From NCBI GenBank assembly GCA_963971425.1, contig OZ020514.1, positions 22,045,406 through 22,109,405 on the forward strand: a stretch of DNA of 64,000 bases, read 5' to 3'. Positions 1,367-48,944 of the stretch are shown in pieces. Both the position numbers and the translations under genes were made by a program. The notes beneath the pieces were generated by a model. That model saw only the letters and a list, made by a program, of their open reading frames with translations. It was not told the DNA's origin and searched no databases. This DNA is from Bryoerythrophyllum caledonicum. Taxonomy: Eukaryota > Streptophyta > Bryopsida > Pottiales > Pottiaceae. Positions within the stretch are counted from its first letter, which is position 1, and the number at the start of each line of letters is the position of its first letter.

Positions 1367-1923
1367 GATTGTAGGATATTACTATCTTTGAGGATCGATC
1401 ATGAGTGATGTAAAGATCGTAAGATCTTTTGATCTCTTTGGTGGTGGATGAATAAGGACTTTGGGTGCAGCCAAGTACTTTGGAAGATTGTAGGATCTTA
1501 CTATCATGGACGATCAATCGGGGATTCTCAAATGATCGTAAGATCTTAGGATCTCTTTGGTTGGTGACCAAATGAGGACTTTGGACGTAGCAGAAAATCT
1601 CCGAAGATCGTAGGATCATACTATCCCCGAGGATCAATCAAGAGTTACCGAACGAGTGTAGGATCTTACAATCGCTTTGGTGATGCTTTGGAGTGATCGT
1701 AGAACCGCGGAATCAGGGTGTCCATAAAATCACGGTTCATGATAGGATCTTACGATCTAGTGTCATGAAGCCTGATCTATAGATTGTAGTATCTTACGAT
1801 TTTTTCTTCCTCAAGTGAAACGAAGAGCAGGGCTGATTGAAGGAGTATAGGATCCTTCTACCTCTGGTACCCTTTGATGTCTTCAAGTTGCGGATCAAAC
1901 AATGAGTTCACTGATCTTACGAG
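1367..1923. repeat. Palindrome family C, left cluster
   Basis: About eleven copies of a 20-bp palindrome with consensus GATCGTAGGATCCTACGATC lie here, starting near 1367, 1415, 1486, 1534, 1606, 1654, 1695, 1738, 1782, 1843 and 1904. Each has substitutions but keeps the centre GGATC and flanking TAC/GTA. Spacing is uneven (roughly 40-80 bp). This is not a simple tandem array, because the bases between copies differ. The open reading frame on the minus strand across this cluster is a by-product of the repeats. Confidence 0.75.
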
Positions 1924-1975
1924 CGGTCACCCTGATGATGACGCCAATGACAGGTGAAACCAATTTGAACCGGAC

Positions 1976-4495
1976 ATGAGTGCTTTCCTTTGCTACCCTG
2001 GCCATGGCATTGTTGGACATGCCATTGTCATTGAAGCCATTCCTACTAGATGTTGGCTTGGCGTCAACATTGATCACATCTTTGCGGAGTTGACTCTTCT
2101 TCGGCATATTGAAATACATGCAATGGCGCAAAGTCTTCTCATTCACCCAATGCAAGAGAGCATTTCTATCTTGGCTGAATCGATTGGTAGAACAATTCTT
2201 TGGGAGATAGCAAGCCTTGTCCTGACTTCGGACTTAGGCAAAACTTATGGGTCCACAAACACTCCTCCTTTTGAACGTCACGTAGAGTGGGTGGGTGAGG
2301 TTGTGAAGCTCTTAAACGGGGATGGGGATCTTCTAGCCTCTAGTCGCGTTAATTCCGTCTGTCTCGATGAGCCGTTCAAAAATAGTACTTTGGAGGAGGG
2401 GAACTTTGGCATCACAATATTTGACATTTTCCTCAGAGATCCTAGTGACATCATGAGTCATTAAAAGTGGCCCATTGCCGACTGTACATCCAAAGGAAGA
2501 CATAGTCTTAGCAATATGCTCGACCATTTCAATCGCCTTACTAAAGTTGCAGACGCGAATGCGGACCTTGGTAGCCGACTGAAGCAAACATACCGGTTTG
2601 TTTGTCGCAAGAAGCAGACTAAGAAGAAGCTAAACGCATTTGCTAAGAAGAGTATGCCGGAAGAAATTCAAGCAATGAGTTCGCAATAATGTTGTTCTGA
2701 CCAATGCGTCCGCTTAATCAGACACCAGGGTACCCTCTTCATTTGGCAGAAGTTCTGGCTGAAGGACTTTGAGGAACGCCGGGACCAACAAGGACTGTGT
2801 GTGGACAATTACGTTATTTGGGCAATAATCGGAAACAAAAGTATGTCACTGTACTGTGTCTGAATATTTGCGCTACAACGTGGTACAAATTCCATGGCAT
2901 ACCGAAATCAACGTTTTACAAATATATGGACAATACAAGAAGGGCGTCGTTTCCACTATGCACAAGAACAAAGACGTCAAACGACCTTGCCTTGGAACCG
3001 TGCAAGGACTTGGTACAATTATGGCTATCATCAATGAGACTACTAATCACATGCCTAATCACATGAATCAGGTTGAATTTTTCGTCACGAGCCGGCCAAT
3101 TCTTTCTTTTAAGCAATGCTCAGAGGGAAGTTTAGATGTAATCACCTCTTACCTCTGATAACAATTAACTCGACTGTACATGTCTCCCTTCCACAAAAGT
3201 TATATTTGCAAGTGGACAACTGTGCAAAAGACAACAAGAACTAGTTTCTCATGGCGTTCTTATTGATGTTGACTTATCAAAGGGTGTTAAAAGAAATCCA
3301 AGTTGGTTTCTTATTAGTGGGGCACATGCATGACGATTTTTATGCTTACTTTAGCCACTTATCTAAGACCTTGAAGAGTCAAAGTACTTATATTGTTGCG
3401 GATTTGATGATGTCCTTCATGCAATCGCAAGACTTAGGTTTTATGCCCAAGGTTGTTCAAGAGGTTGTTGATTTCAAATCTTTCGTCCAAGGTTATATTC
3501 GTGATGGTGCTGACAAACTTGTTGGCTAGGGAGAGATGCACCTCTTTAAATTCTTCGTAGATGAAGAAGGGTGGCCCGTCATGCAATTTAAGGAACTTGC
3601 AGTTCATGCGCACTTGCTACCTAGGGTCAAGCGTGCTATTCGTCTTTAGAGAGAGGATGCTAATGGAAAACCGATGATACCTTCCGGTCTCCCAAATCTA
3701 GTACCTTTCAGGTGGTTGTGGGGCGATGAGGTTTGTTCTTCCAGAGGAAATCTAGACAAGGCAAGAGAAAAGGTTTCCAAAGCTTTGGATGGGAGGTTGT
3801 TTATCAAGTGTGGAATTCGAGGTTATACAAAATTTTGCGAACAGGGGATGCTTGAAAGATTGGGCTTGCGAAAGGAATTTCCACCTTATATTGAATATTG
3901 TAATGGGATACTTGCAGAACTAGAGAAACCTCTTCCTCCTACTCGTGCAACCTTGGTAGATGGCTTTTGGCGAGTTCATGATTGGAGAGTCAGAGATCCA
4001 GCTCCATTATGCCTCGTTACCAGCATTGATGTCACACCTGAAGATGACAAATCTGAACTTTACTACGGCCCAAGGAAAGAGAAATCGAAGGACGCCTTGA
4101 ATCCATGGCAAGATGTTGGAGCGGGATCATGGGTCCTGCCCCGTCCTTCACACCCTAAAATATATATCCCATTTGGTTAGGAAGAGCATATTCATGCGTC
4201 AATTGTGAAAGAAGACATGCGGAATATAGGAAGTTCATTATCCAATTCTAGGAGCCAAAAAATCAATTTAAAAACCACAAGAAGAAGTATGAAGATTGTT
4301 GGGCAGCAACGTGGGTTCCTAAAAAATGACGTCCACTTCAAGTTTATCTTGATGCCATCGTATTTGTCTCTGTGTGAGGAAGAACGAACCCTAAGACTCG
4401 GACAATTCCAAAGAGGGACCAAATTGCAGCATTGGCTAACCTTGAAGCTACAAACGTGGCGGATCCTTGAACGAAATAGGGTTCACTAGTGACAT
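1976..4495 (+). pseudogene. DUF8039/DUF7869-type element protein, copy 1 (decayed)
   Basis: Reading along the plus strand gives the parts in order. A DUF8039-like module (about 1990-2190) ends in ILAESIGRTILW. A Cys-rich stretch lies near 2690-2720 (CCSDQC). A helical segment with GIPKSTFYKYM lies at 2895-2930. The DUF7869 core has DNCAKDNKN near 3210 and GFLLVGHMHDDF near 3310. The C-terminal part (3674-4180) contains VDGFWRVHDW. Compared with copies 2 and 3, about 0.6 kb between about 3060 and 3180 is missing, including the HDKMD segment. There is a frame change near 2930 and several in-frame TAG codons (for example just after DNKN and after VG), so the locus is dead. The function is unknown; I infer a transposase-like role from the repeated element context and the spaced acidic residues. 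The family name is from memory. Confidence 0.6.
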
Positions 4496-5281
4496 CGTAG
4501 AATCTTGCGACTTAGACCTCCTCGAAACTTAGCTATGACTTCCCACAACACGACTGATGACTTAGTAGAAGTCTTCCAGGAAGATAGCATGGTACTTCCA
4601 TCACTCGTCTTTTTCTTCAACTCTTCTAGCGAGATAGTAGGATCCTACAATCCTGCTACTTCTTGCTGCATATGATAAATTTTTACACCTATTGTAATTA
4701 TAATGCATTCAATTTGGCGTTTTCTTTAGTTGTTGAAAATGTATGAGCACTCTTCAAATACTTTTGATCCTACCCTTAAATGCTGATATGCTACATTACT
4801 TTCCTGTCATTTGATGTAATTTTTATTGTACTCTATTCTGATGATTTTTTTAAAACTATTCCACCAAGATAGCAAGATCCTACGATCGTGCTTCTTCTAG
4901 CTGCCTATGAAAGATGCTCACATGTTTGATAACTTTTATACATATACTTAGGCAATGTCATAATTTCTTTACAATGTATTAGCCCTCCTCACATACTTCT
5001 ATTTCTTATGGAACTGCTTACATGCAACGTATGTTTCTCACTGTAGATGCAATATATACATTATTCTTCTCACTTCTACTACCACCAACAAATGGAGATA
5101 GTAGGATCTTCCTATCTTGTGATGCAAAGTCGGTTCTCACTTCTACTATGATGATCTTCATATCCTTAAAGGTCACTTCCTACATCACACATTCCTACAA
5201 TTTATCAATTGTTTTTCTTGTGAAGCTTCTAACTTTCAGAATATATTCACCATCTTTGTTAGATCATAGGATCTTACGAAG
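4494..5281. repeat. Palindrome family C, right cluster
   Basis: Five further copies of the C palindrome lie near 4494, 4633, 4868, 5097 and 5262. The copy at 4633-4652 (GATAGTAGGATCCTACAATC) is one of the best. They resume within a few bases of the end of the copy 1 coding remains and stop at 5281, so the family brackets this one gene. The sequence between them is AT-rich and non-coding. Confidence 0.7.
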
Positions 5282-5289
5282 CACCTCCA

Positions 5290-6838: not shown

Positions 6839-7410
6839 AGGTTCAAAAGAAGTAGAGAAATGATTGCTTAAGCAAAGGAAATACACACAATATTACAAAC
6901 AATGCTTGGAACGAGATGGTGCCTTCTTTCAAAACCCTTTACTTATACTACCACTTAGTGGCGTCTCATGGACCTTGCAAGTGGCTTCTCAAGCATCTTA
7001 CAAGTGCCTTCTAAAGTATTTTACAAGTTGCTTCTCAAGCTACTTGCAAGTCCCTCTATGCGAACTCATGGGCCACATAGCCACCCACTTGTCCTTGCTT
7101 ATCGCATGCAAGACATGTGGGTTGGTCCTACCTCTTTGACTTTGCGTCATGCCTGTAAGAAGGGTACTAATGGGCTTGCACTCCTCCATGTTGAAGCGCT
7201 TGAGCACTTCCTCAACGTACATTTTTTGGCTCATAGTGATAGTACGTGCCAAGCGGTCTCTCACAAATTCCACACCAAGACAATACTTTAACTCACCAAG
7301 ATTGCTCATCTCAAACATCGTGTTGAGCTTACCTTCGAGCCACGCCAACCTAAAAAGCTAGCCAAGATGATCAAGTCATCCACATAAATGAGGACTATCA
7401 ACAAGTACTG
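6839..7410 (-). mobile_element. Ty1/copia fossil, 3' part of reverse transcriptase
   Basis: On the minus strand a YVDD-box stretch (LIYVDDLIIL, about 7365-7400) is followed by copia reverse transcriptase sequence with LGELKYCLGVEFV and EVLKRFNMEECKP (about 7170-7330). Further downstream the minus strand is non-coding and similar to 45.24-45.53 kb. The fragment continues in sense exactly where the larger copia piece at 10.88-14.06 kb stops, so I read both as one old element split by a later insertion. It is broken in many places. Confidence 0.75.
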
Positions 7411-13800: not shown

Positions 13801-14060
13801 CCTTGTATGTGCACCTTCAGTGCACCTAGAAACTCCTTGGGCCAACTTCAATCACGTCCAATGCTTTGAACGACCTTGAATTAAAACTTTTGCACCTCCG
13901 ATGCTTCAAATTAACCTTGTGCACCTCGAACGCTCAAAAACTTACAACATTTCCTTCTAACCAATTTGCACCAAATCTCTACACATGCAATTCACATGAG
14001 TAGGCCCATAACCTATTGAGGTTCAAAAGGAATAGAGAAATGATTGCACAAGCAAATAAC
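10881..14060 (-). mobile_element. Ty1/copia fossil, gag to reverse transcriptase
   Basis: The minus strand carries the parts of a copia element in order. The gag start has LWKFKMEMMLASMDLW and DNQLAHVKSS (13.34-13.61 kb). More gag follows (13.13-13.33 kb), then a zinc knuckle with YNCVKPGHIVQNYF (12.9 kb) and a protease region with DVLCVSKL (12.5-12.6 kb). Next come pre-integrase and integrase with FCEGCVQGKQH (12.2 kb), integrase C-terminal FGCIAYVMVPD (12.0 kb), and reverse transcriptase with CKWVFRSKKDASKR and ARLVAKGYSQ (11.3-11.4 kb), ending near 10.98 kb. The leader and possible LTR remains lie at 13.62-14.06 kb. A stretch of about 38 bases at 14,018-14,055 recurs at 6,839-6,876. The element is old and broken many times. 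No intact LTR pair or primer-binding site was found. Confidence 0.88.
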
Positions 14061-14383
14061 ACCATATTCATTAAAATGAGACAAATCATGAGATTTGAGA
14101 GTAAAAGGTTATTACTTCGGACACAAATATCGAGAAAAGTTGTTGCAAACGAAGGCATACATCATGCAACATACAAGAAACATCCCAAATCCAACAATAA
14201 ACAACATGATCATTGCGATGCTCCAAAATAACATTACACAAGACATACTATTAATAGGTCGTCATAGAGAAAAAAATTCCATCCATAGTCAAAGAGGAGT
14301 GAGTAAAATGGAAAATAATAATACTAAAACTTTATTTTCATGACATTGTTTATCAACATAGATAATCACAAGTTAATTTCTAT

Positions 14384-15277
14384 TTATAGTAGTCTAGGAT
14401 CTATACTATCGTCTCTACAACAAAACAAGGAAGGACTCCTAAAGCATATAAAACTGTTCTTACTTAGGAGTTCCCCCTCACTAGAAGGAATGGTTGGACC
14501 ACCTCCTCGTGTCTGGAGAAGCAAGGCGTCATGTGCTTTCACTTTCGCATACCCAATCATAATTTCCTTCCTCCGAGAATAGGGTTTATAGTAATCATCC
14601 ACTTCCAAATAATTCATGGATTTTCACAGAGGTGAGTGACGTGATAGATGGCACCAACCACTATCAGCCTTAGAACCACCACCTCCACTCAAGCATAGTG
14701 AGTTACGACAAAACTGTGAAGATGCGGATCTGCAAGAACTAGGTTTAAAACCGAGAGATTCAGTATGCAATCCCGTTGAACGGGAGGGAGGATTACTAAC
14801 TCCAAGAATACCTTCAGATCTTGAACTAGGACGTCGCCTCCATTTGGCAGGGGTAGGAGAATGCTGGACAAGAATAAACGAAGGCGGAATAATCAAATTG
14901 GAAGAGATAGGCTCAGACTCCTTCACCTTGTTAACATCAATTGCTCCATTTGCATAGAGCTGCCGTTTAGGAGTGCAATCGCCAACAGGCTCTACAGAAG
15001 CACACATCTGCTTGAGTGGCGAAGGAGATTCCACACAAGAAATTCCAGCCCTCCGCTCAAGAGGGCTATCAACAACACCATCATCGACCTTTTGTGTAGA
15101 AAAGTCCATGATAGCAGAGGCAACATCGGTTGCAGTGTACGTAAGAAACGACTTTGAATGGTGGGATTTGGGAAAACCTCCAGGAAGAGACCCAAAGTAC
15201 TCAGAAAATGAGCCACAATTGGAGGGTGGTTTACTACGATAACTCCTACAAAGAGGAGGGATGGTAGCCTTCACAAC
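14384..15277 (-). pseudogene. 3' exon of element B left-arm gene, unknown protein
   Basis: A minus-strand exon starts just after a clean acceptor (TTTTGCAG, 15,278-15,285) with the residues VVKATIPPLCRSYRS and runs to 14,384. It crosses one in-frame TGA at about 14,624 and continues in the same frame with VDDYYKPYSRRKEIMIGYAK. The product is Ser/Pro/Arg-rich and looks disordered. I recognise no domain. It follows the NIF-like exon on the same strand and may be the C-terminal part of the same gene. The copia fossil begins about 320 bp beyond its end. Confidence 0.4.
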
Positions 15278-15637
15278 CTGCAAAAGACACACGAGGTAAA
15301 AGAAGCGATGAGTAGGACATAACAACATTCACAGCAATCCAACGCATGCTCAACCCGAGGATAAATATGAAAGTCCAAAGGAAAAAAGTTTACCTTGAAT
15401 CCATAATATAAACAAAAAGCTCGACCAGAGGATAAACAATTATACTGAAAACAATGATAAATCCTAGAACCGACCGAATGATGAATAGAAAAACATAGGA
15501 AACAAAAAACACAAGACAATGGCAATAAGTTACAAAAAAACATGTAGTTGAAAAAATAAATATATATTCAAAATGTATAATGGTGTTTACAATGTCGATA
15601 CTAAATATCTACTTTATTACAAAATAGAAGTCTGAAA
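15278..15637 (-). other. Intron-like gap with two weak family B palindromes
   Basis: This gap separates the NIF-like exon from the next exon of the minus strand. It ends in a good polypyrimidine tract plus CAG acceptor. Two half-decayed B palindromes lie at about 15,346-15,364 (CTCAACCCGAGGATA) and 15,418-15,436 (CTCGACCAGAGGATA). The stop codon TAG at 15,638 argues that the upstream exon may instead be terminal, so whether this is intron or intergenic is open. Confidence 0.4.
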
Positions 15638-27624: not shown

Positions 27625-27765
27625 CTTGCAAAAATCCCGCAACAATCACAATGAATAGAGTCAGGTTCCAACACATGTCAGGCCGTTGACTGGCAGCCGA
27701 CGGTCAGATACACTGAAGCCACACTACACGAATAGCATGAACAAACAAGTGAGCATTAAAAGTAC
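27625..27765 (-). other. 141-bp intron with family A palindrome
   Basis: The donor GTACTT follows the residues QDHAAWK. The acceptor TTTTTGCAAG precedes NHLTVIMSKAKD. The palindrome variant GTTGACTGGCAGCCGAC lies at 27,685-27,701, about 64 bases after the donor. The frame is kept in phase 0. Confidence 0.55.
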
Positions 27766-29282: not shown

Positions 29283-29319
29283 GGTGAAAGAGAAACATAC
29301 CTATCGACTGATGACATTT

Positions 29320-30800
29320 TGTCAGCTGCTGGAAAAAACCCGTCGGCTGGTGACTTTGACTCTAGCGCTGGAGCTTCTCCGCCTCGTTCCGCCTGCTGGG
29401 TGCTCCTCCACTACTTTCTTCAACTTCCGGAAACACTATATCGGCTGGCCGCGGACGGATTCAGTCCTAAACTAGGAAAAGTCTTACAACCTAATCCTGA
29501 AGCTGCTTAACTAAACCAGGAAGAGTGGATTGCAAATGACCCGGTTTGGTGGAAGCCTGACCTTTTATACGTCGTCGAATCTGAACGCTGCAACCGTTCG
29601 ATCAACTTTCGTCCTTAATCGAAACGCCATCGAAGAGTCTCGATAGTCTGATTGTCTGATAGTCTCGGTAGTCTGACAGTTTTCATCCAACCGGCAGGAT
29701 TTATAGTTGGCATTTTCAATTTCATTTTAAATCATTTTTTAATTTCCAATATTCAAATTTACTTAACGTTTTTGTGATCTGATGTAACTTTCTTTTTAAT
29801 ATTCTAATTTAGATTTTCTTAAATATCTCTTTTATATATTCTTTGATTTTTTGAAATTTCTTTTCAGTTTGGCTTTCGGATTCGACTCATTCATCCTCGT
29901 CATTTATATTTTGTTTTTGATTCTCTAGAAAATCTTTTCGAATTTCGCAAGGAAGTTTTGTATTGAATTTTCACATTCGATTCCGTTCGAATTTGAATTT
30001 GAAGTCCAAGAATGAACGCGCGCGAATTTCTGGGCGCGAATCCACGAAGGTGTTTTTGGTGCAAAATTTCAAAATCGACTTCCGCGCACATTGTTCAGCT
30101 GAGAGAGGGATATCAACGCATCTACTGCGAATCCTCTGTCATTTTTTGTCTGCTTCTCTTTATTGCACCTGCTCTCACACGCTCTCGTGTAGTATAGTTA
30201 TTGTCTCAGCTTAGATCGTCCGCTTTGCACTGTTCTGCACTGGCTATTTTTAGCATTCAAGTATTCTTCTTGTTGCACGTTGACAAACACTTTCTGGAAG
30301 TAGGTGTTCATTTATGGTGTAGGCGATCATTTGATGTGCAATTCTGTTCAATGCTTTCTCCAATTAGAGCTTAGATTCCATGTTAAGTAAAATCGTACTT
30401 CATCACTGTGAAATCCAATAGGGTGTCCAGGTATTTCCCAAGTGGAACTACTCTCGGAAGATATCTGCTCAATCCCTGTATTGTCCTGTAGCTTTCCAAA
30501 TTTTGAGTCGCAATTTGATACTGTGTAAGTCGACCTTGTAGCTTCACCTTAACGTTGTATCTGCGTTGATCACCTGACTACCTGAAGTCTTGATATTCTA
30601 AACCCTAGAAACCGGTTACCAAATGTGTGCACAAAAGTGCTCCTTCCCAGTTTGTTTCTACATTCCATGAAATCACGAACATGCTCTTTCCGAATCACGA
30701 ATTCCCAAGTCTCATGCAAAAGCAGTGAAATCCTTTGGAAGTTCACCCGAAACTTGAAACCCTAATCTTGAACCCTAATCCAAAAACCTAAAGCATCAGT
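29320..30800. promoter_or_regulatory. Divergent promoter zone between the two arms of element A
   Basis: This is about 1.5 kb between the minus-strand left arm and the plus-strand right arm with no supported coding sequence. It contains an AT-rich core (29.7-29.95 kb), a CG-rich island-like patch (AACGCGCGCGAATTTCTGGGCGCG near 30,010-30,035) and a pyrimidine-rich stretch near 30,120-30,200 like a 5' untranslated leader. No exact TATA position or start site can be fixed. One transcription zone serving both arms is inferred only from gene direction. Confidence 0.35.
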
Positions 30801-32766
30801 TTTGACTCTATGACGCATGCATTCGCATACACCCTATTTGTGAGCCGTTCTCGAGCTGGATGCATGATCCTTAGGTTGATTTTATCGACAAATTTTGTTG
30901 GCTCCCAGCCGACAAGCCCAGTTGGCATTCTGGATCATGGATTGGGGACCCATTTTATCGTTCATGAAGAACAGAAAATCAGGTCGATGGAAGCCCCGTA
31001 AAGGTGTTCAAGTTGCCCTAACTCACTCAGGCCTCTACTTTGCTGGTCGCGCAGTTGTTCAAAAAATCATTCTGAGGGATCCATGGATTATTTGTGTCAA
31101 GGTGATCGATGTTTTCGATTCGATGGAAATGCCCATTCCGTTCTCAATTGATGGACTATCCATGCTACACGAATGTTGTGGCCGGTCAATCAATTGGGAG
31201 GCGGCTGACCTTCGGCCATTCGCTATCATCGACGAACTCATTGAGGATCCACCGGAATCCATATTGCAACCCGTTGAGGATATCAAACCAATTCTGTCGT
31301 TTCTAAACCTTCGTGACGGAATGAAGGTTGCCCTCGTTGTTGATGTCATGGGTCACAACTGTTGTGCAGGCGTTGGAGTTATTGATGAGTGCTCACCAAA
31401 GGGATCGTAGGAAGGGTTCCTAATTCCTCACAGCTTCTTTTTGGTTGTCCAAGTCCAGACAGTAAATGTCAAGTTTCTCAGTCATATCGCATATTGCGAG
31501 CTCCCTGAGGTGAGCACGCTTGGTGACACGGTGGATAACCTTGTTCTTTGGAGTGGCTATCGAGTTTGCCCCATGCGAGTCCGTAACGACACTGGATATG
31601 CCTCAACTAATGAATCTTCAGTGAGTGAGATGTCAGGCGCTTTGGATGACGACAATCGCGGGGACAGGATCTATGATGTCAGCACTATTCAAGTGTCGTT
31701 ACGGACTCGCATGGGGCAAACTCAATATCCAGTCATTGACACGGGATTCAACACGGATTCAGGAAGCGACTCTGAAGCATGTCGAGAGCGATATGAGGAC
31801 GTTCCGTTGGCTGGCAGTCGACGTTCAACTGATCAACCACCAATTGAAGCAACCTTCCTTTCAGGGGTCAATTGTGATCAATTTCAATATTCGGATCGAC
31901 AACAATGGAGGAACAAGTACTGCCATTTGCTCGACAATAATTTCGCATTAGTTGGGCGGGCGATGATTCAAGTTTGTCTCCCGTATGAGGCATGTGATGC
32001 GGACGTATTGGGTGACACTGACGTAGGCGTACTCGTTGTTTCTGAGCATGAGGATCTTCAGATGATGATACTACGCTGGAAGATTTTGCACACGTGCCTG
32101 GAAGGTGGTCCACTGCTGTCTGAGTGCCTCATCTACTGCTCTGAGCACAATCATGCCACATGTAAAGATGACGGGCTTGAGGGAGTGGCCAAGGATCCAT
32201 ACACAGGTATGAAACGGAAGCTTAAGCAGAAGAGCGATGTTTCTGTTACCAAGTTTCGACGCCTCCAATCCAAAGTTTCTTGTCAGCTTGTTAGTTCGAA
32301 AAAGTGTTGTTCGAGACGATGCTATTAGATATTTCTTTGGGCGGACACTTGTAAAATCCGCTTGCAGCTCTACTCCTCAAGCTTCAAACAACGGCGTGAA
32401 ACTGCGTACGCTGTTCAGGGCCAGCTCCACGAAGTTCCTGGCTTCCAAAAACCCTTCATAACTCTGCATGGCGTCGACGTTTGCGAAGTTGCGTGGTTTC
32501 GCATTCATGGCGTCTCTAAGTCTGCATACTACAAATATAAATCGGATTCATTGAACGGACGCGTAAACGGTGGTCATGGAAATGCTGGAATTCTGCGCCC
32601 CAGGTCTCAGACTGTTCAGGCTCGTGGGACCATTTCCAGAATCATCATCGATAATGCAGACCACATGCCAAATGAGTTTCGAGTCATCGGCAACAAGAGG
32701 GTTGCATCTCTTATGGTTCTACCGGCTGTGATGAACTGGAATCATCTCCGTGACATGTCCAATCTG

Positions 32767-32907
32767 GTATGGTTCAACATTCTTCCTACTTGCACAATTG
32801 ACTTGCTCATGTAACCCATGGTGTCGGCTGGTAGCCGATGCATGTCTATTTTTGCATCTCTCTAATTCTACATCATTAGTCTTGATCGCTCTCTCTGTCG
32901 ATTCCAG
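32767..32907 (+). other. 141-bp intron in copy 2 with family A palindrome
   Basis: The donor GTATGG follows LRDMSNL. The acceptor CGATTCCAG precedes VNSECCVKP. The palindrome GTCGGCTGGTAGCCGAT lies at 32,823-32,839. Copy 3 reads straight through the same place (VLPKVNDVNSRFGLKP, 42.64-42.69 kb) without an intron, which supports the borders. Confidence 0.75.
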
Positions 32908-34007
32908 GTGAACTCTGAATGTTGTGTCAAGCCGATTTTGCAATCTGTTGTTAATCGATTGAAACGGAAGTTTTTTTGGAACGTTGAGGTAAAGACCGTT
33001 GGTAGCAACTTTTCAAGATGTACCGAGTGTGACTATCTGGTTGAGTTTCTAGCCAAATATCCTCGTGGGTCCGACGAATGGCAAGCACTGCATGATGATC
33101 GGGCGAGGCATCTCAACTACCAAAGTGCTTGCTGTGATGTGTATTCAGGATGGACATCTCAATCTATTAATTACCCGTCTGAGTTTCTCTGCATTATTCA
33201 CGACAAGATGGACACTTCAAAGACGGCCATTCCAAGAATGCAGCGGATTACGAAGGCGACCGCGGGTCTTGGACAGATTCCTATTTCATGTACTGGCATG
33301 CTTACTCACGGTCACGGCAACGGTGCATATGCGCATTACTCGACGTCATTATGGCCTGGGAACTCCAATTTCACAATCTCGTCTATCTGCCGTGTTCTTC
33401 GGGCTTTAGAGCGCCGACCTGTACGAGAGTCTAAGCAATTTTTTACATGTCCACCTCAGAATCCGTTCTTTGAAGCTCTACTCCGTGGTAAATCCAGATG
33501 TAGTTCGTTGATTCCAGAAGCTAAAGGCGATCCCCTTCCAGTTTCTTCGCTCGCTCAACCGGAAGCTGTATCTCCAACTTGATAACTCTGCAAAGGATAA
33601 CAAGAACAGGTTCGTGATGGCATTCTGTCAGCTTCTCAGAGTTAGACAAATTTTTAAGGAAGTGACTGTGGGATTCTTGATTGTCGGCCACACTCATGAG
33701 GACATTGACGCGCATTTTAGTTACCTTACAAATTTCATCAAACGGAAAAATACATACTGCTTAGCTGACCTCATGAAATCTTTCATGGACTCTCATAAGA
33801 CAATAGCCTTTATTCCTGAACTTGTTCAAGAGGTTGCTGATTTTAAAAGTTACATTGCTGATTACCATCACGACGGCAAAAATAAGCTTGTCGGTCTTGG
33901 TGAGATGCACCTTTTTAAATTTTACGTTGAAGAGGAAGGTGAAGATGCAGGATGGCCGGTCATGAGATACAAGAGAAGTGCAACGGATTCATCTTGGCCC
34001 CCTCCGG

Positions 34008-34185
34008 GTGAGGCTCATTTGTTTTTCGTCATCGTTCTGTTTGTATTCATTTTCTGCCGATTCTCTTGCTACTTATCCGTCGGCTGCCAACCAACGGATT
34101 TTACCTTTGTGCTTCTTACGTCCTCCTCTCCTTCCATTTCATTGCTTTCTTGTTTTTGTCTAACTTTTTTGTATATTGCAATCAG
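34008..34185 (+). other. 178-bp intron in copy 2 with decayed family A palindrome
   Basis: The donor GTGAGG follows SSWPPPG. A T-rich tract with acceptor TTGCAATCAG precedes DKPVKMW. The palindrome relic GTCGGCTGCCAACCAAC lies at 34,079-34,095. Splicing keeps the frame (G plus AT gives Asp) and matches LWKMTADG-type sequence in copy 3, which has no intron there. Confidence 0.7.
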
Positions 34186-35077
34186 ATAAGCCTGTGAAGA
34201 TGTGGACGGCAGATCAATTCGGGAATCCTAACCTTCCGATCGGTGGTCCGAAACCAATACCCTTCAAGCCGCTTTGGGGTGACGTTCATGTCAACGATTC
34301 GAAGCGAAACAAGGAGAAGGAGGTAGCAAGAGCCACTCGAAACAGCGAGAAGCAGTCCTTTATCAAAAACGGTATTGCAAAGTATATTGAGTTCTGGAGG
34401 ACGGGCATGGCTCGAGACAAAAGATATGCCGCGGATATGGAACCTTTCATTTCTTATTGGGAGCGTCTTTTACAACTTATTTCAAGTCCTCTACCTCCAA
34501 ATCCCAACTGTCTGCATGAAGGATTTTGGCCGAAATCGGACTAGATGCGTGATCATGCTCGCGCAGCGTCACTGCCCGATGCAATTATTTCCGGCTCGGA
34601 TGTCACACCAAAAGATGAACCCAACCCTTACCCTTTCTGCGGCCCAGAGATGAGCCGTCCAATATTATCCTTCAATCCGTTTCATGATGTTCTTCTTGGT
34701 GATTTTGTACTTTGCCGACCTTGCACTGGGCATTACCTTCGTGTCTGGATGGGCCGGGTACTGGAGTGCGTCAACCACAATCCTCGGAATTCCTACAGTA
34801 ACTTTAAGGTTGAATGGTGGGTTCCACTCACGACCAAGAAAGATTCTAAGAAGATCATCGGAAAGGAGTGCTAGAATAGGCGATGGGAGCGGGAACAAAG
34901 GGATCCATATGTTTAGAACTGCAGTATCGTTCTCTTCTCGCATCGCTACCCGTCGCATAGTAAGCGTGGGCCTCCAAAGATCCACCGTATCCCGCCTGAA
35001 GCAGCGAGCGCTGCAATGGCTTGTTTGCAGGCAGGTGGCATCGCTGTTCATGGCAGTGGCGAATGATTGCTTTTCTG

Positions 35078-35261
35078 GTCGGCTGCCAGCCGACGGATTG
35101 ATGTTTTCTGCAATGTAATTTGTTCATCATTTATTGATTTAAATGCTGCCTGGAAGAGTAGTATCTGCCGATCTTCGGCCATTGATACTTTTTTCAAGTA
35201 ACTCATGTGACAAGATCTCAATTTGAGTAGTTGGTGTTTTTCTTGTCGGCTGCCAGCCGAT
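35078..35261. repeat. Two family A palindromes downstream of copy 2
   Basis: GTCGGCTGCCAGCCGAC at 35,078-35,094 is perfect. The second, at 35,245-35,261, differs by one base at its right edge. They lie between the C-terminal remains of copy 2 and the acidic exon at 35.52 kb, in a stretch that is either a last intron or 3' untranslated sequence. Confidence 0.65.
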
Positions 35262-35518
35262 AGCCTCTGTATTTTGCATATGTAGTTCGATCTATTTTTT
35301 GTGGTCAAAGTCTTCGTGCATGTGAAGGAGGGACTGAAATCTGTGGCACGTATGTTGCTCGTTATCATTATGATGAGTAGATGGGTAGTTGTACATGAAT
35401 AATTATTCTTGATGCGCAATTTGCGGCAAGTGATTTATAAATTCACGGATTCACTGTGTGTGAAGTATCTCATTGTGTTCACTTGTTTTTGTGTATCTTG
35501 ACTATTATTTGCTACAGG

Positions 35519-36003
35519 TTGGAGTGGTTTCCCCTTTTCCTAGTCTAATTCTGTTTCTAACCGACGACATGGATGAGACTCGTAGTATGGCGCTTGTTAG
35601 GAGAGCGAGAGAGGAAAGGGGGGAGAGGGAGGCAAATGAGGCCAGAGTTGCCAGGGAGGCAGAGTCTAAGAATAGTTTAGTATATGAAAACTCTGTGGAT
35701 AGCACTGTTCCGTCGAGTGACGTTCATGAGGAGAACTGGAACGAGGAAGATGACAAAGCGGAGTCCAACAACGATGACGATTCTGACGACGATGGCGGTC
35801 AGCATGTCAATGCTCAGTTGGGATGCTCTCATGAGGAAGACCGCTACAGCAATGGATCGAAAGAGGTGGACTTGTGGGCTACCGGAAACTTTGACAACGA
35901 TTCCTTTTCAAGCTTTTCGGGTAATCCATATGAAATCAGATGCGACACCAGTTCGGACGTGGACTCCGATATGTATGCTCCTGCATGGCACAAGAACTGG
36001 TAG
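35519..36003 (+). CDS. Acidic, disordered exon downstream of copy 2
   Basis: The exon begins after a good acceptor (TTTGCTACAG) with VGVVSPFPSLILFL and runs 161 codons to a TAG at 36,003. An internal ATG at 35,570 would give MDETRSMALVRRARE. The sequence has a basic/acidic repeat part (RRAREERGEREANEARVARE), a long acidic run (DDDSDDDGG) and a Ser/Asp-rich tail. There are no internal stops. It could be the last exon of the DUF7869 gene or a separate small gene. I recognise no domain; its composition suggests a chromatin- or nucleic-acid-protein-contacting tail. Confidence 0.45.
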
Positions 36004-36958
36004 ATGTTAAGTGTAGTTCAGCTTGTAAATAGTCCCTTGCAGTTGCTTTTCTCTAATCAATTTTCCAGTCTGTTGCCATCTATGGGGCACCTCCAAATGT
36101 AACATTCATTTTGACTAAAATATCGTGCTCTTTTCCGATCTTATCATTGGTGTACTTCTTTTAAGTCAAGCTTGTTTTTACCTTTCTGTTTTGATGTTGT
36201 GCGTGGTAGAATCCTGTGTGTCATATGACTTCAACAGACTTTTGTTCATGTGTTGTCTTCTGTCTTCTGACAGTGTGTTGTCTTGTATAGTAATTTTGTT
36301 ATCAATGTATTATATTGATGGACATTTATGGATGTTCAATATTTTACGTGCTGCCAATTGGCAGTCATCTTTTTATGAAACCCGCTTCCTCTTCCTTGTT
36401 TTTGTCTTCAGATTGATCACCTGTATTTCTTTACCCACTTTGCCGGACTTTTTTTATGGATGTTTTTTTCACAACATTCTGTTGGTAGGATTTCATTCTT
36501 ATTCATTGAAGTTCTTCTTGTCGGCTGCCATTCGACAACCTTTTTTTATTTCGAGTTTGGAGATCATTTGTTTGCCCTACTTACTCGGGCCTTTACTCTC
36601 TAAGTGTTTCCCTAATTTTTCAGAAAATCATTCTGCCATCTACTACTACTTCTACGAGCTGCCTACCAGGAGCCTTCTTTGTTTGAAGTCCACTAAACTC
36701 TTTGTTGTCCGTCGGCTGCCGGCCGACGTCTGTACTCGTAGGACAAACCACGTTCTTCATTTTCATGTTGACCACCTCTCATGGCTTCATATTTTTGGTT
36801 TAATTTCCAAATTATCACCTTATTTTTCATCCCATTTTTTGAATAAATTGTTTGATCATTGGAGTATTTTTTATCACCTTTTTTGATCATGAGATTTCTT
36901 CTATAAATATATTTGGTGATTCTGATTCCTCCTCATTCTTTGTCGGCTGGCCCCCGAC
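36004..36958. other. T-rich region with three family A palindromes; right edge of element A
   Basis: Palindromes lie at 36,520-36,536 (decayed), 36,711-36,727 (GTCGGCTGCCGGCCGAC) and 36,942-36,958. A 253-codon open frame on the plus strand covers most of this stretch. Its hydrophobic composition simply reflects T-richness, so I do not call it a gene. No family A copy occurs to the right of 36,958. Confidence 0.5.
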
Positions 36959-39388
36959 CTTTAATTCTGTCTTCGGGAATCCTTAGGGCATATGGAGATT
37001 CTTTAGGGTTCAAGGGGAATATTTAGGGTCAAGGAGAATCTGTAGGTTTTTGGAGTATCTTTAGATTTTGTAAATTAACGGCCAACGCTTAAAGTTGAGG
37101 ATTCTATTGGTTTTGAAAAGACTTCATAATGATATGGAACAGTTATTATAGTTTCGTGTGGGACAATGTTTGGTGGAACGCAATTTCCAATGTATATCCT
37201 TAGGATTTAGCCCATATTTTCTTGTTTTTTTGTGTGAAGTAGGAAATGAAATCCAAGTCTAAGTTTTTTTTTGGTCCATAATTGATCGATTTGTCCATAT
37301 TTAGTTAAATATCCATTTGAATTGTTTTAGGAGATAATTTTTCATATAGACACTTCAAAACTGTTATTCAACGCAAATTTGACGAGTTTTTGTAGTGCTT
37401 GGATTGTTTGAGATTAATTTAGCATTCAACACGTATACTTTGCTGAACTTTTACTTACTCAAAGTAAGTTTTAATGTCAACTATCTCCTGCCTAATCAAC
37501 CTTTGTTGAACCACTTAAGGTGTACAAAATACTTCAATACTACTTAATCCCAATATAAGTTCCTGATCAATTTCACACCCAAATTACTTCTAAACTGTTG
37601 ATTCGAGTGCAATGAGTAACAAAAGAAACAAGTACTTTTATTTCTAAATTTTACCATAGGATCTTAAAAAATACTTACCAAATAATCAACTTACAAAACT
37701 TCATTGACATTGACCGGACGGATTGAAAGATTTTAGTGTTTGAAGAAGGAAAATGGTTAAATTTCTTCCCTGCGTTGAGTGGATCAACAAACTTTCACTT
37801 CACTTAATGTTATACACTTGCACTATTCATGAGATTCTAAATGCATTACCATTATGTTTAGCATGATTCTAGTTCCTTGTACACCAATACTTAAAGGTAA
37901 AGGAGTGTAGCATATTCAAAAACAGTCTGCAAAGATTTGGAATTCATAAAAGGTCATTTATTCACGTTTTGTGGTTTTTTTGAACTAAATATGATTTAGA
38001 ATATTGTTCCAGACAGTCACTAGTAAGGTTAACTTCACATATCGTTGTAGATTAAATAAAAATGGAAAATTGTGCGGATCTATATGGTTTATGAGGAAAA
38101 GAAGATGCTTTTGTGTTCCTTGATAAATAATGTGTGAAACTGTTTGACTTGGGTAAAAAATATTTTGATAATCAAAAACAAATTTTGTATTTGTACATCT
38201 GTAAACAAGGAAATATTCTTACTATGTCAGAAAAATCTAAATGTCAATAGAAACTTCTATGAACAATATGGAGCTGTGCAGAGTCTATATTTTTAATTTT
38301 CAGTGGTACTAACTTTCGAACCACAAACCAAGAAACATAATGAAAACACCTCCACAAAGCATTGACCAAGGAAAATCTAGTATAAAATTTTAAAACACAA
38401 AATATAGATATTTTGTATCATAGGTAATTGCCCAAACTCAAGAAATCTCCTCCAAGGAGATTTTTTTTCTTTAGGGGTTAAGTATATATTTCCTACAAGA
38501 GCTAAAACAAGCTACAAAGTTTAATTTCATCTAATATTTTATAAAATCATTTCAGTAAAGTTTTTATATAAGTAGTATGAAATATACATTTTTAAAAGCA
38601 TGGAATGATTCAACAACAATTGGTTGATTTTTAAATCAAGTCTATAACAATATGATATTTAGTAATACTGATATCATTTTATAGTTAAACTCTATCTTGG
38701 TATAGAAAAGAGTACAATGTAAGTTCAGTGAGTTTGAAATAAATATTTTTGTTTCAAAAATTTGCATGTGATATTATGCTTCCATAAATTTTTTATTTTT
38801 CTAACGTTTAATTTTTTCATTCATTGATAATTTGATATATCCAATTCATTGGTGTTCTTTTATACCATTCTTGTGAAGATATATTGTAGAGGCTTGGTGT
38901 AGATTCTACAACAGTTTCAACCAACATTTAAACAATAATTTAAGTTCTATTCAACATTGATTTTTGTTTAAAAATAAATGAATATCGTATTGAATTTTCC
39001 TTATTACCTAATTTATAAAGTTTGTGAACAAAAATCTTGGCATAAACTCGGTGGACATGGACTTAATGGTGGAACAAACAATCACTTTATTCACGCCGGC
39101 CCTTTAAACCGGAGTTCTTCTTCTACTTGTGTGTGACAGAAAACATTTATCATCTTACTTAAAAGTGATCAAAATTTGAGAAAAGTCTGATTTTTTTATT
39201 AATGAAACATATAGTGCTTTAATGAAAATATAATACTTTTATCCTAAATCAATTTAAATTTTCTTCAATTCTTATTTGAAAACAATACTAAACCAAATGA
39301 TGTGGATTAAAACTTTTAATATTCTAAGAGTTATTTTCTTTAAATCGATTCAAATTTTACTACGCTTATCATACTACTAAATCATAAT
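36959..39388. other. AT-rich non-coding stretch, partly related to 5.3-6.6 kb
   Basis: There is no gene. A few TTTAGGGT(TC)AAGG(G/A)GAAT words repeat at 36,990-37,060. Blocks at about 37,710-37,800 and 38,300-38,400 align in the same order with 5.74-5.82 and 6.47-6.55 kb. The rest shows only AT-rich sequence. This may be the right terminal region of element A. Confidence 0.4.
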
Positions 39389-39500
39389 CCGCACGGTGAA
39401 CCACACAGCCATAAACCACGCAGTCAATCGTGCAGTGAACTATAGGAACAGTGCAGTCAACCGCGCAGTTAATTGCGCAGCCAACCGCGCAATGAATCAT
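39389..39500. repeat. Short tandem tract of CGCAGTCAACC-like units
   Basis: About eight degenerate 11-14 bp units of the form GCGCAGTCAACC occur in a row (ACCACGCAGTCAATCG, TGCAGTGAAC, GTGCAGTCAACCG, CGCAGTTAATTG, CGCAGCCAACCG, CGCAATGAATC). It is a GC-richer island in an AT-rich stretch with no coding sense. It looks like a decayed microsatellite or the hairpin-rich end of a small transposon. Confidence 0.6.
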
Positions 39501-39527
39501 GTTATAATTTTTTTAATATAGTTTGTA

Positions 39528-39796
39528 AAATAAAAACTTCATTAAAATGGTTGGACGAATGTAATGCAAAGCACTAGCTTGAGTATTTGGGTGTGTGAAA
39601 TTTGCATTTCTGTGTTGCAATTTGTGTTTATCCAAAATATATTTGTAACTCTTGATTACAAATTTTACGTTCATAACATATTTATATTTTATATAGATTG
39701 TTGATACCATTGTTTTTTATATTTTGTGATATGAAAACTACATTAAAATGGATGAACGAATGCATTGCAAAGCAAGCGCCAACTGCTAGTTTTTAG
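39528..39796 (+). mobile_element. Pair of related Helitron-like 3' ends (tentative)
   Basis: Two about 45-base stretches (39,532-39,578 and 39,732-39,793) share AAAACT, CATTAAAATGG, TGxACGAATG and TGCAAAGCA. Each has a small hairpin TTGCAAAGCAA followed by CTAG. The second ends CTGCTAGT, the CTRRT-type terminus of plant Helitrons. No 5' TC end or Rep/helicase gene is present, so these would be non-autonomous remnants. Chance resemblance remains possible. Confidence 0.35.
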
Positions 39797-39823
39797 TTAA
39801 AATTCTAATTCTAATTGGAATAG

Positions 39824-41585
39824 CTATCCTCGAATCAAGGATAGTCTATAATTAGAAAGTAATCAAAATACATGAATTAGCTCGAAAGACTACTGTAATT
39901 TTCCGCAAAAACTCTCAAAATTCTAATACTCTCTCAATATAATGAATATGATAATAATTTATTATATTTGATTCTTATCATTTGAACTAGTTTACAAATA
40001 TACTATTTGTTACAATATTTAAACGTTAATTTTTTTTTTTAAATCAAATTTTTGAAGACTTTTAGCAGATTTTTGTTAATTTTAATTACTTTTTTACATA
40101 TAAACCAAATATAACTTTCAATTTTTCATTCATTAGAAAATCCGATTTTGTCAAAACGAATCTCATTTTGTTTAATTTGGGTTTGTCGTATTCCTAAATT
40201 GAAGTGACTCGAAAACTTGAAAAGGTCACCTCAAAAGTTGAGACAAAAGTACATTATTTTCCCGCCCAAAAATGTTGCCATTGGAAAAAGTCTTTCCCGC
40301 CCAACTCCGTTTTTTGGGCACTGGAGTTCATCTCGACATTCATACTTCCCGTGGAATTTCTCATTTCGAACTCTTTCCTCTCTGTGCCTCGCCTCCGCTT
40401 CCACTTCTGTGTTTCAGCTCTTGCCTCTACAGTAAGATACTGAACTAAGGTTTATATTGGTCTAGGTCTTTTTTGGAGACACGAATGTCTTGGATAGGTT
40501 TTTGGGGAAGGAGTGTAAGTGTGGTTGTATTTCTTATGTTGTTGTATTTCTTGCACGTTGGTTTAAGTCATTTTCATTTTCTTTTTGCCTGTGTCGCACC
40601 TATCATTTCAATGTTTTCTCCTCTACTTTATGTGCAAGAGTAAAGGTCGACTTCCCCATCCCAAGTTATTAAGTGTTGTTGACCATTGAGCATTGCAGCG
40701 GTTCTTGTTCGCACTTAAACTTAATCTCTATCTGTGACACTCTGCATATGACGGAATCACTCTAGCACTGTTATCCTCGTGTCGAGGATAACCTAAACTG
40801 ATATAATCAGATGAGATGAATAATTAAATAACCAAAAATGACTTATCCATGACTCGAAGATAAAACAAAGGAATATAGTGCTTTCGAACTTTAAGTGTAA
40901 AGTATTGTACGAATACGGCGATAATTTTTTTAAATTATATTTATCCTCAAGTCGAAGATAATGGATGAAAACTTGTTGAATTTCAATGATAATATAATGA
41001 GTATAATGCATGAGATCATTGGTTGGATCAGGGTTTGATGTCTTGTCAGTCTTTCCCATTATTGGTTGTTTATCCCTCCACGGTGTTAACCTCGAGTCGA
41101 GGATATCCGAGGTAAGGTACTTAATATTTCGATATCAAAATTTATGATAGTTATTCTTGAATCGAGGATAATTGACTTTGAGTTTGATGTCATCTAAGGC
41201 GTATGTTGAATGTTAACTGTCAAATATCAGATTTATGTTTTTTGGTAAATTGCCAATGTTATGCTCTCAAATCTTCGATAAATGTTTTGGAGTTCTATCC
41301 TCGGTTCGAGGATATCTCACTGAGGCTTCATGCAATATATTTTTTAAATCATATCTTGATTGGTTCCTGGCAAATTTAAATTTAAAGAGATAATTTTCTA
41401 GTTCTGAATTTGATTGATTAATCTTTGAATGCTTCTCTTTGTTCGGAGTGATGTGTATATTTGGTGTGTTTCTTCGAGTTCAAATCATTAGTGAGTTGTT
41501 AAACCTCATTGTGGATTTAATGAATGATCTCTTAATTCAGTATTTAAATTTTTTATATCTGCAATTATCCTCATATCGAGGATAA
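39824..41585. repeat. Palindrome family B, right cluster
   Basis: Nine copies of TATCCTCGANTCGAGGATA-type palindromes begin near 39,824, 40,771, 40,843, 40,941, 41,086, 41,151, 41,296 and 41,565, one with a decayed neighbour. The best are 40,771-40,791 (TATCCTCGTGTCGAGGATA) and 41,296-41,314 (TATCCTCGGTTCGAGGATA). The middle base or bases vary while the arms are conserved. They lie upstream of copy 3 coding sequence, in what should be its promoter, leader and 5' intron. Confidence 0.78.
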
Positions 41586-41691
41586 GCGTATCTTCTCTGT
41601 TTCATTCTCCTCTCATTGAAGCTGTTCTTTACAATTATGATGATATAAGTGAATGACTCACCCCCTGTCTTTTTCATTGTGATATCTTGAA
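40200..41691 (+). promoter_or_regulatory. Likely leader and 5' intron of the element B right-arm gene
   Basis: A pyrimidine-rich stretch at 40,370-40,435 ends in a good donor (CTCTACA then GTAAGATAC at 40,431). It is followed by about 1.25 kb with the B palindromes and then TCTTGAAG|ATGGAAGATCGC at 41,692. Short open frames at 40.2-40.45 kb carry no recognisable protein. This arrangement (leader, palindrome-rich intron, coding sequence) mirrors 30.1-30.9 kb of element A. Confidence 0.4.
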
Positions 41692-44457
41692 GATGGAAGA
41701 TCGCTCATACGATGGTATTGTCCGAGTTCCACCTACCTTGCCTCCAGGTGTTGCTGCATGTGATGGAATTCCTCGCGCGTTGTGGTTCTCAAAGCGCGTG
41801 ATCCTTAGAACACATCTAGGGCTGATGTTGGAATTGGACTTTGCCAGAGTGTTGATTCTGGATTTGTTCCTGAAACTCGTGGTCGGCCAATTGGAGATGA
41901 TCATGTTGCGATTAGAATCGCAGAATGCTTAGACGAGACTGAAATTCCATTGAATTGGATGTTTGCCCTTCGAGCGTGGCCAACTCGACAGGTCTTTTTT
42001 TCCAACGTCAGTTTGTATGACCAAGAGTAAACTAGCATTTATAATGCAGCTCTAAAAGTATTTCGTCGTGGTCCTAGAGTAGGCGTTCGACAGTACGAAA
42101 CCACTCATCAGAGAGTAGAGGGTCCTTCCCCACGAAAGAAGGAAGTACTTCTTACTTCACAATCGATCAACTCTGTTGCGAGCACCGTCTGTTGTCCAGA
42201 AAATTGTACTCAACGATTTCCACAGTGTTCAATTTTTGTGCTTCGCTCCCAAGTTTACCGTGACATTGGAGGTGTTTTCTTTCAGAAACATGTCTAGCTT
42301 GATGTACACATACAGATCCACATGGATTCCAATGGCAACAATGTGGTGACGCTTGATGGAATTGATGTATGCCAAAATGCATGGTGTACTATTATGGGGG
42401 TTAGCCGAGCCACATTCTACCGGTACAAACGAGAGGCAAAGGACGGGATGCGGGCGGGAGCACACGGCAATACTGGTACAAAGGAACCCCGGACTCATAC
42501 TCTACAGGCAATTGCTACTCTGCATGATATACTTGATGATGATGCTGATCACAGTCCTAATAAAACTACTACACTTGGCACTGGGGAGAAGGTGGTCTCG
42601 AAACACTTGCCTGCCTCTTTTCAATGGAGTGGAGTGTTGCCCAAAGTGAATGACGTGAATTCAAGATTTGGCCTCAAACCAATATCTTTGTCTCGTCTTA
42701 GTCGAATTCGGAGCTCTGAATTTGAACAATACTCTACTAAGAAGCCTGGTGACAACTTTGCTCGCTGCGGAAGATGCGACCAACTCAAGTAATTAAAGAA
42801 GGCTTGTACAAGGGGGTCTTCCGCATACAAAATGTGGGAAGTCAAGCTGCAGTTACATCGGGCCTCTCAACAGACTCATTGTATTTTATATTATGGGAAC
42901 CGGAAGAAGTTGGAAGAAAAACCTAATGAGGTTGTGTGCGTCACCCATGATAAAATGGATCATAGCAAAACCGCATCTCCTCATTTTTCTCACAAGAATA
43001 AAGCAACGGAGTCCTTCATGAAACTGGTTGTGGCCGTAACTCGAATGATTGCGCATGGACATGAAGATGTTCGTTATGCCCATTATAGTCTTGACATCTT
43101 CCCCACTGACTTGAACCACATTGTTGGATCCATCCCGAAGTTACTTCGGGACTTAGAGAGTCCACCGGTGTATTCTTCTCGTGAATTATTTACGGGAGGA
43201 AGAGCTTCTCCTCTCTCTTAGGCTGTGCTTGCGGATGCTAACGTGTGTCTTGGATCCCTTGCTGCTCCACTGGTTGAGCATGTTCTTGCGAAACAATTAC
43301 CACCAGTTCTTCAAATGTAGTTGGATAATGCCACAAGGGACAATAAAAATAGATTTGTGTTTGCTTTTTTTTCCCTCCTCATTCATATGGGTATTTTCCG
43401 TGAAGTGTATGTCAACTTCTTACTTGTTAGTCATACACACGAGGATATTGATGCAATGTTTGGGAGATGGAGTTCCAAACTCAAGTCAAATAGCTATCCA
43501 ACAATTCCACTCTTGATGAAATCATTCATGGATGCTGAGAAAATGCCAGTTATTCCACACCTCATTGAAGAGGTGCTCGATTTCAAGGGCTTTTAAGAAG
43601 GATATTTGTGCATTGGCAAAGAGGCCCTTACGGGTCACACAAAGGGCCAACAATTCAAGTTTTACAAGGGCTCAGATGGATTGCCAAAGATGCAGTACAA
43701 AATTCTTTGTACAGATAGGGATTGGTTGCCCGAGGAGGATGGAGGAATCCAACTGTGGAAAATGACAGCAGATGGTATGCCAATTTTGCCTCGTGGTCAG
43801 TCGCTTCCTCTCATTCCGCGACGTCATGAGAATTATAATGAGGTTTTGAAGGGTATCTCTGGGTTTCTAAGTCTTTGGGAATCTATGGCTAACGAGGATC
43901 TCTCGGATGAATATAGGAGGAAGAACGAGCATATTATGTATTATTGGAGAGGTGTTAAGGCTGCCCTTGAGGGGCCTTTGGAAGAATCGTCTCTCCTACG
44001 AGAGGGATTATAGCCACTATCTAGATATGCTCCATCTATGGTGGATGAATATGAGATTGATGGGTCATTGAGGGAGGAGTGTACAGAGGACCCTCCATTC
44101 ATTGGACAACGACATCATTGTCCTCCTCCATCGTTTCGGGTTGGTAGAGATGTATACGAGGGCTATATACTTGCGGTGCGTTCTGCTGATGGGGATTTGC
44201 GCCCATTTTGGATTGCCTTGGCGTTGACTTATCCACATCCGGATCGTGAACATTCTCATGAGATTAAAGTGCAATACTTCAAACATGCATCCCAACGTCA
44301 TGTGGACTTGGAAACGTACCAAGTGTGGGATTCTAATCATGGGAATAATTGGGTTGAAGAAACTGAATCTAAACCAATTTGGGTGTATACAGATTGTATT
44401 TTAACGGCTTGGAAGCCTAGGTTGCGTGGAAACACGAGCTCCTCTAGGGGGTGCATG
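41692..44457 (+). pseudogene. DUF8039/DUF7869-type element protein, copy 3 (element B right arm)
   Basis: Start at MEDRSYDGIVRVPPTLPPGV. A frame change near 41,810 leads into a DUF8039-like module (ADVGIGL to LNWMFALRAWP, 41.82-41.99 kb). From 42,190 to 44,457 one reading frame runs through the whole protein: a Cys-rich segment, DGIDVCQNAWCTIMGVSRAT (42.36 kb), FARCGRCDQLK (42.78 kb), VTHDKMDHSKTASPHFS (42.94 kb), LDNATRDNKNRFVFAF (43.32 kb), VSHTHEDIDAMFGRW (43.43 kb) and PTIPLLMKSFMDAEK, then LREGL near 44,010 and the C-terminal domain to about 44,457, where a GTACTT donor fits. It is broken only by six or so stop codons (TAG/TAA near 42,295, 42,790, 43,219, 43,318, 43,594, 44,011). At 43,318 the other copies read Gln and at 44,011 Trp. 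No introns occur where copy 2 has them. It is the most complete copy. Confidence 0.7.
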
Positions 44458-48940: not shown

Positions 48941-48944
48941 GCCA

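Follow-up and report, generated by a model that had tools for sequence, protein, structure and literature searches.

Within a stretch of 64 kb of the genome of the moss Bryoerythrophyllum caledonicum (the window), three DUF7869 genes lie among dispersed palindromes that differ from one gene to the next. The question raised by this locus is what these palindromes are and why each gene has a set of its own. The first-pass annotation had proposed three unrelated palindromes at the three loci, in about 19 (family A), 17 (family B) and 16 copies (family C). A scan of the window with position weight matrices (PWM) revealed 20 copies of family A (CGTCGGCTGSCAGCCGACG) at 21590-36959, 17 copies of family B (TTATCCTCGANTCGAGGATAA), nine at 15344-21479 and eight at 39824-41585, and 13 copies of family C (AGATCGTAGGATCCTACGATCT), nine at 1366-1863 and four at 4632-5282, all listed without strand. 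The number of B sites agreed with that annotation, A had one copy more and C had fewer. The PWM threshold was higher than the top score of each of eight Markov shuffles, each matrix having been refined on its own matches, and no stray member of A, B or C was found elsewhere in the 64 kb.

Counts of the words with up to three mismatches gave the same picture, with 20 A, 14 B and 5 C sites against shuffle means of 0.03, 0.01 and 0.00, respectively. A de novo palindrome-family finder recovered 20, 15 and 8 members, whereas in five shuffles per region the largest family had 2-5; at 47000-64000 it yielded families of four at most. The A, B and C words are mutually unrelated and, within the window, each is confined to its DUF7869 element, as had been proposed. 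Copy 1 of the DUF7869 gene is bracketed by C sites (nine upstream and four downstream) and copy 2 sits amid A sites, also as annotated. Family C is the weakest of the three, since it is degenerate, is known from one element and lies partly in a tandem triplication with a unit of 119-120 bp.

The limits of the elements were determined by comparison with second copies in the same genome. Element A (15.8 kb, genes on both strands) has a copy, A2, at about C1:24.694-24.709 Mb that is 91% identical over window positions 21513-37314, after which the sequences part at both ends. The copy of element B, B2 (L040+L041, about C1:20.527-20.544 Mb), matches the window in pieces, at 14050-21206 (67-75% identity) and 37681-42754 (70-82%). 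By this comparison, element A is inserted in element B, between the minus-strand genes of B and its DUF7869 gene. The left part of B (14050-21512, left end approximate) carries minus-strand ORFs that include a NIF-like gene and an XY-like gene, and the right part (37315-44613, right limit provisional, no strand) consists of a divergent intergenic region and the DUF7869 gene; both parts are assigned by homology to B2. Because element A is nested in element B, B palindromes flank A on both sides. The claim that family B precedes copy 3 is therefore correct for the nine left-hand copies but incomplete, as B brackets the nested element and has eight more sites to its right. With up to three mismatches, A2 contained 18 A, no B and no C sites, and B2 contained 18 B, no A and no C sites; A2 and B2 had been chosen for their site clusters, so these numbers test purity and homology, not frequency. 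About 0.65-2 kb past the end of A2, the sequence L039 showed 71-74% identity to window positions 14056-15207, in the left part of element B, indicating that A and B elements adjoin there too.

The DUF7869 gene of element A (copy 2, 30936-35063, plus strand, exon limits set by hand) matched PF25273 at 33614-34189 (E 2.5e-22, 79.8 bits against a cut-off of 26). Copy 1 (element C, 1958-4486) and copy 3 (element B, 41690-44613), both degenerate and on the plus strand, are classed as DUF7869 by homology to the other copies; the three are 40-52% identical among themselves. On the minus strand, element A carries three paralogs of the NIF (FCP1-like HAD) type at 21821-25090, one matching PF03031 at E 2.9e-10, another at 2.1e-4, just under the cut-off, and the third assigned by paralogy, and gene XY (26335-29100, limits set by hand), which has a GGQHTY motif. 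A divergent layout, with NIF-like genes, a low-complexity protein and XY on one strand and the DUF7869 gene on the other, is common to A and the related elements A' described below, and the NIF-like and DUF7869 genes of element B are arranged as in A. Comparison of A with A2 gave windows of low dN/dS (0.03-0.44) across all main genes, including DUF7869 copy 2; only windows below 0.45 were printed, some of them on the wrong strand, so the values show past selection and not its extent.

The distribution of the words was determined in the whole assembly (437 Mb, 894 contigs). With up to two mismatches, the A word occurred 2725 times against 10 for the reversed-pattern control, and the B word 4604 times against 3. 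The A and B words are therefore a property of element families and not of single loci; the genome-wide counts cover A and B, family C having been seen in one element. The proposal that each family is private to one locus holds within the window, but A and B recur in clusters throughout the genome. Over the first 30 Mb of C1, all 52 exact A sites were more than 15 kb away from any of the exact B sites listed. A search with the DUF7869 domain of element A (150 of 2975 candidates scored) showed that 9 of 10 matches with an identity of 88% or more (counting the window copy) were within 15 kb of an exact A site among those listed for the same 30 Mb, compared with 3 of 14 matches of at most 84% identity and 2.7% of random positions. 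The exceptions were three distant matches (80-81%) near exact A sites and one 89% match that was not.

The first-pass annotation also expected every DUF7869 locus to have its own palindrome family. From the 3601 first-look candidates for a DUF7869 profile, 150 were scored. Every one of these matched, and their open frames measured 247-1092 aa; the 30 taken as loci formed a clade (clade I) whose identity to the window copies is 23-40%. Two clade I regions, L036+L017+L037 (17 kb, both flanks) and L035+L013 (the gene and its downstream side, without the 5' flank), contained no palindrome set like A, B or C, only AT-rich sets of six, which exceeded their own five shuffles (2-4) and resembled AT-rich sets of 6-9 in A2, B and B2. 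When the proteins of A' were compared with these regions, the transposase alone matched, a result informative only for L036+L017+L037. On the other hand, clade II loci picked by protein alone had a family in five of six long ones (P1, P2, L046-L049), of the G:C type described below, and sites in all five short ones; the exception among the long ones, L048, showed no palindrome family. The rule for all DUF7869 loci thus fails. The open frames of the clade I loci (L005-L034) reached 1087 aa and several loci had equal scores; these are possibly a recently active family.

The relationship between word and element was analyzed in relatives of element A. P1 and P2, two loci of 84% identity without exact A sites, carry GTCGGCGGSCCGCCGAC, the A palindrome with G:C instead of T:A at the seventh pair on both arms; set side by side, the words of the A' and A copies are GTCGGCGGSCCGCCGAC and GTCGGCTGSCAGCCGAC. 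The G:C word was also present in three of four loci of 75-80% identity, L046 (5 members), L047 (4) and L049 (11). T was found in 37 of 40 half-sites of A and 33 of 34 of A2, and G in 19/24 of P1, 31/44 of P2, 9/14 of L046, 5/8 of L047 and 18/20 of L049. Pooled, A and A2 had 70 T and 3 G, compared with 21 T and 82 G in the five relatives; for the Fisher test on these half-sites, A and C bases were dropped (1 of 74 in A and A2, 7 of 110 in the others), related copies were treated as independent, and L048 (2 G, 3 A, 3 T) and L050-L054 were excluded. In 2.6 kb pieces taken from five further copies, every site found was T:A in L050, L052, L053 and L054 (2, 3, 2 and 3 sites) and G:C in L051 (3 sites).

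A FastTree phylogeny of the transposase separated A, A2, L050, L052, L053 and L054 from the rest with support of 0.999. By the majority of half-sites, all six members of this clade are T-type and six of the seven relatives are G-type, the seventh (L048) being decayed. The state of the word thus follows the transposase tree in these comparisons, and most of the sites have changed in concert and symmetrically in one clade. The outgroup fell among the G:C copies, weakly suggesting that G:C is ancestral (support for the placement 0.35-0.59). P2 mixes the two half-site types (31 G and 11 T), and just 10 of its 22 sites have G:C on both arms.

Retention of the sites in place was examined in an alignment of A, A2, P1 and P2, in which 14 of the 20 A sites had a P2 partner at most 60 columns away. 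At 13 partnered sites, A2 and P2 were identical at 167 of 182 core positions (92%) but at only 263 of 650 flanking positions (40%, best of five shifts), random pairs giving 36%; site 29146 was left out, since it lies 30 bp from 29116 and its partner is ambiguous. The partners were picked by motif match and core identity is partly built in, so the weight of this evidence is on the presence of a site at the homologous place in DNA that can no longer be aligned. Partners were absent for 29440, 35245, 36520, 36711 and 36942, and 35078 had only a partner with four mismatches. Similarly, 14 pairs of B and B2 sites were identical at 217 of 266 positions and their flanks at 43%, with two window sites sharing one B2 partner and one partner having five mismatches. 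Palindromes at 19 of the 20 A sites (323 positions) showed hardly more conservation between the close copies A and A2 than the remaining sequence did (92.6% and 91.3%). Only 2 of the 20 A sites lie in coding sequence, which makes up 64.5% of element A (P 6.6e-7, with gene limits set by hand).

The observations to be explained are the sites, their link to element families, their retention in place, their avoidance of coding sequence and the concerted symmetric switch in one clade. Long palindromes that stay in place in non-coding DNA, with both arms altered symmetrically in one clade, are consistent with a dimeric protein that has acquired a new specificity. We therefore regard the palindromes as probably the sites of a dimeric DNA-binding protein encoded by the elements and co-diverging with them, as first proposed. 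On the side of the sites this proposal is borne out, since they change with the element, by one symmetric base pair and in agreement with the transposase tree; the protein, its dimeric binding and its job are the parts that we infer. A, B and C would be multi-gene DNA transposons of about 15 kb, and the putative dimer would bind sites in introns, flanks and intergenic parts, thereby marking its own element and no other.

The palindromes could instead be RNA hairpins that act in transcript ends, processing or stability, the symmetric change being covariation of the stem. The switch preserves pairing on both arms, sites 24085 and 35078 are close to ORF ends, and the three central bases of the B word are weakly conserved (0.66, 0.29 and 0.66 bits), as in a loop. 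Polyadenylation in giant viruses, which follows a hairpin rule, is an analogue. However, 36 of the 37 A and A2 sites have C or G as their central base and the adjacent pair is also conserved, positions that an RNA loop would leave free, and in 13 of 14 sites the C word retains an even AT centre, although the scan pattern itself favours this centre. Sites also occur in introns, upstream regions and coding sequence. Unlike arms were seen at 29 sites of A, A2, P1, P2, L046, L047 and L049; 21 of these are T:C or G:A and only three are G:U-compatible. Taken together, these results make the hairpin reading improbable.

Binding of a host factor of transcription, replication or chromatin that the elements exploit is no likelier. 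The mostly non-coding position of the sites would agree with it, and motifs of host factors are often short palindromes. Against it, one nucleus contains three unrelated words and a switched version, all tied to the relationship of the elements. A shared host factor would not be expected to follow the element tree, and an element-encoded binder is thus the likelier of the two.

A functionless origin, in which tiny palindromes that are mobile or arose by slippage multiplied within the elements, is very unlikely. The tandem triplication in part of family C and the sites present in just one of A and A' are in favour of such spread. On the other hand, palindromes that had spread recently would sit at new places and share their flanks, whereas for most A sites P2 has a partner at the homologous place, between flanks that match little better than chance, and most of these changed in parallel. 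Chance, mutation or misassembly can practically be dismissed, since the shuffles and reversed controls were almost free of sites and the switch is a transversion and therefore not CpG deamination. For A and B, chance and artefact are already refuted; family C rests on one element.

The job of the element-encoded binder that we prefer can be approached from known systems. Several palindromic or repeated sites per cognate protein are found in ParB/parS and plasmid iterons, where they are clustered and serve partition or replication; the likeness here lies in the several palindromic sites and the putative single cognate protein. The present elements are most like VANDAL transposons with their VANC proteins and CACTA elements with their subterminal motifs. 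The first-pass statement that no described eukaryotic transposon group with such element-specific internal palindromes is known is too strong, as element-specific motif sets have been described for both of these (PMC5735166, PMC2613891). In the VANDAL (MULE) transposons of Arabidopsis, motifs and VANC anti-silencing proteins are described as diverging together between related families (PMC5735166, PMC10398659). These family-specific short motifs lie in introns, intergenic and terminal non-coding parts, and that of VANC21 is 9 bp long and occurs in one orientation in high-density arrays, often as tandem repeats (PMC5735166). An element-specific motif enriched in non-coding parts is also present here, coding avoidance having been measured on A. 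In contrast, the palindromes in this genome are 17-20 bp long, mostly single and dispersed over 15 kb, with only part of C in tandem, and the transposase-like protein is DUF7869.

In the soybean CACTA elements Tgmt* (20.5 kb), the subterminal repeats include stem-loops, differ between subfamilies of one species, are presumed to be bound by TNPA-type proteins encoded by the element and may co-evolve with them (PMC2613891). These repeats are near the ends (4 within 159 bp and 24 within 732 bp; PMC2613891), whereas the sites described here run through the whole element, and the ends of P2 are AACGGATATTTAAC, not CACTA. The new features are that the motifs are palindromes dispersed over the whole element, that the protein is DUF7869 and that the switch is symmetric. 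Searches of the open-licence literature found nothing on these features; no paper on DUF7869 turned up, and none of the papers listed for palindromes in moss was relevant by title.

By analogy, self-recognition against host silencing, as in VANDAL/VANC, is the most likely job of the putative binder, although we hold it tentatively; recognition of subterminal sites in a transpososome, as for TNPA of CACTA, is possible but comes second, and repression of the element's own genes is rather unlikely. A more specific model, which we consider evenly poised, is an element-wide palindromic code in which a dimeric protein of the element binds about 20 dispersed sites and so defines the element as self, a new specificity arising by rewriting the sites half-site by half-site with the same symmetric substitution. 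If so, the A/A' pair with the hybrid sites of P2 catches a specificity switch part-way. The joint change in specificity of a DNA-binding protein and its numerous sites is an open problem. This one genome contains three unrelated words, a symmetric switch of one base pair at no fewer than 13 homologous sites, hybrid sites and numerous copies, some of which have long open frames, so that co-evolution can be tested on few proteins. Outside the Arabidopsis VANDALs, it also provides a system for asking by what means transposons mark themselves and avoid being silenced.

Gene XY is the first candidate for the binder, with the NIF-like proteins and a helix-turn-helix (HTH)-like segment of the B transposase (PF20432, E 0.004, below the cut-off) as alternatives. 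XY has matches in A2, P1, P2, L046 and L049 (homologs P0020-P0031), and its link to element B consists of one weak match in B2 (E 0.004) and the motif, seen by eye. Pieces of XY gave no informative match in Pfam, NCBIfam or PDB sequences (for one of the PDB searches, among 60 of 127 weak matches), a homolog search with exon X found nothing, and the model of the XY homolog P0029 (pLDDT 34) was unusable. Assignment of XY to ParB was rejected, since the likeness (GGQHTY) is by eye only and no ParB family matched in the same three collections. Matches of XY to influenza HA2 in PDB sequences (best E 0.012, among those listed) were judged to be chance.

A model of the clade I relative P0001 (pLDDT 54) had, by eye, an RNase H-like order of strands and helices; Foldseek with this model gave no match at 1e-3 or better, Argonaute/PIWI being among the top weak matches, and no MULE domain was detected in the subset of window ORFs scanned. 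The ends of P2 are inverted, with a 28/29 bp match of terminal inverted repeats (TIR) and ATAC on both sides by eye (one copy). Element A shares its ends between two copies and has no clear TIR or target site duplication, a search for both being not above shuffles. Over their last 45-48 bp, A and P2 share 92-93% identity, compared with 64-78% in the aligned interiors (L044+L045, reverse strand, about 15452-15506), as expected of an end bound by transposase.

Several NIF/FCP1-like genes are kept per transposon (three in A at 21821-25090, about four in P2; another in the window is at 15638-16489), and their catalytic aspartate motif looks degenerate when judged by eye. Three stretches of 3 kb (L001-L003) consist of AT-rich repeats, mostly 95-97% alike, with A-type palindromes extended to 25 bp. 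At one end they match the P2 terminal region, L001 with 78% identity over 65 bp, and nothing in these 3 kb matched the genes of A, A2 or P2. They are possibly non-autonomous partners, and, given A sites in 3 kb without such a match, the sites may matter in trans. The flank of another A copy (L004, 1-957) is 87-93% identical to window positions around 53591-54110. Positions 1-330 of the window, at 22 Mb inside a 65 Mb contig, contain degenerate CCCTAAA-like repeats, which we take to resemble plant telomere sequence, and positions 6874-7157 and 45266-45503 form a related repeat pair of 82-85% identity.
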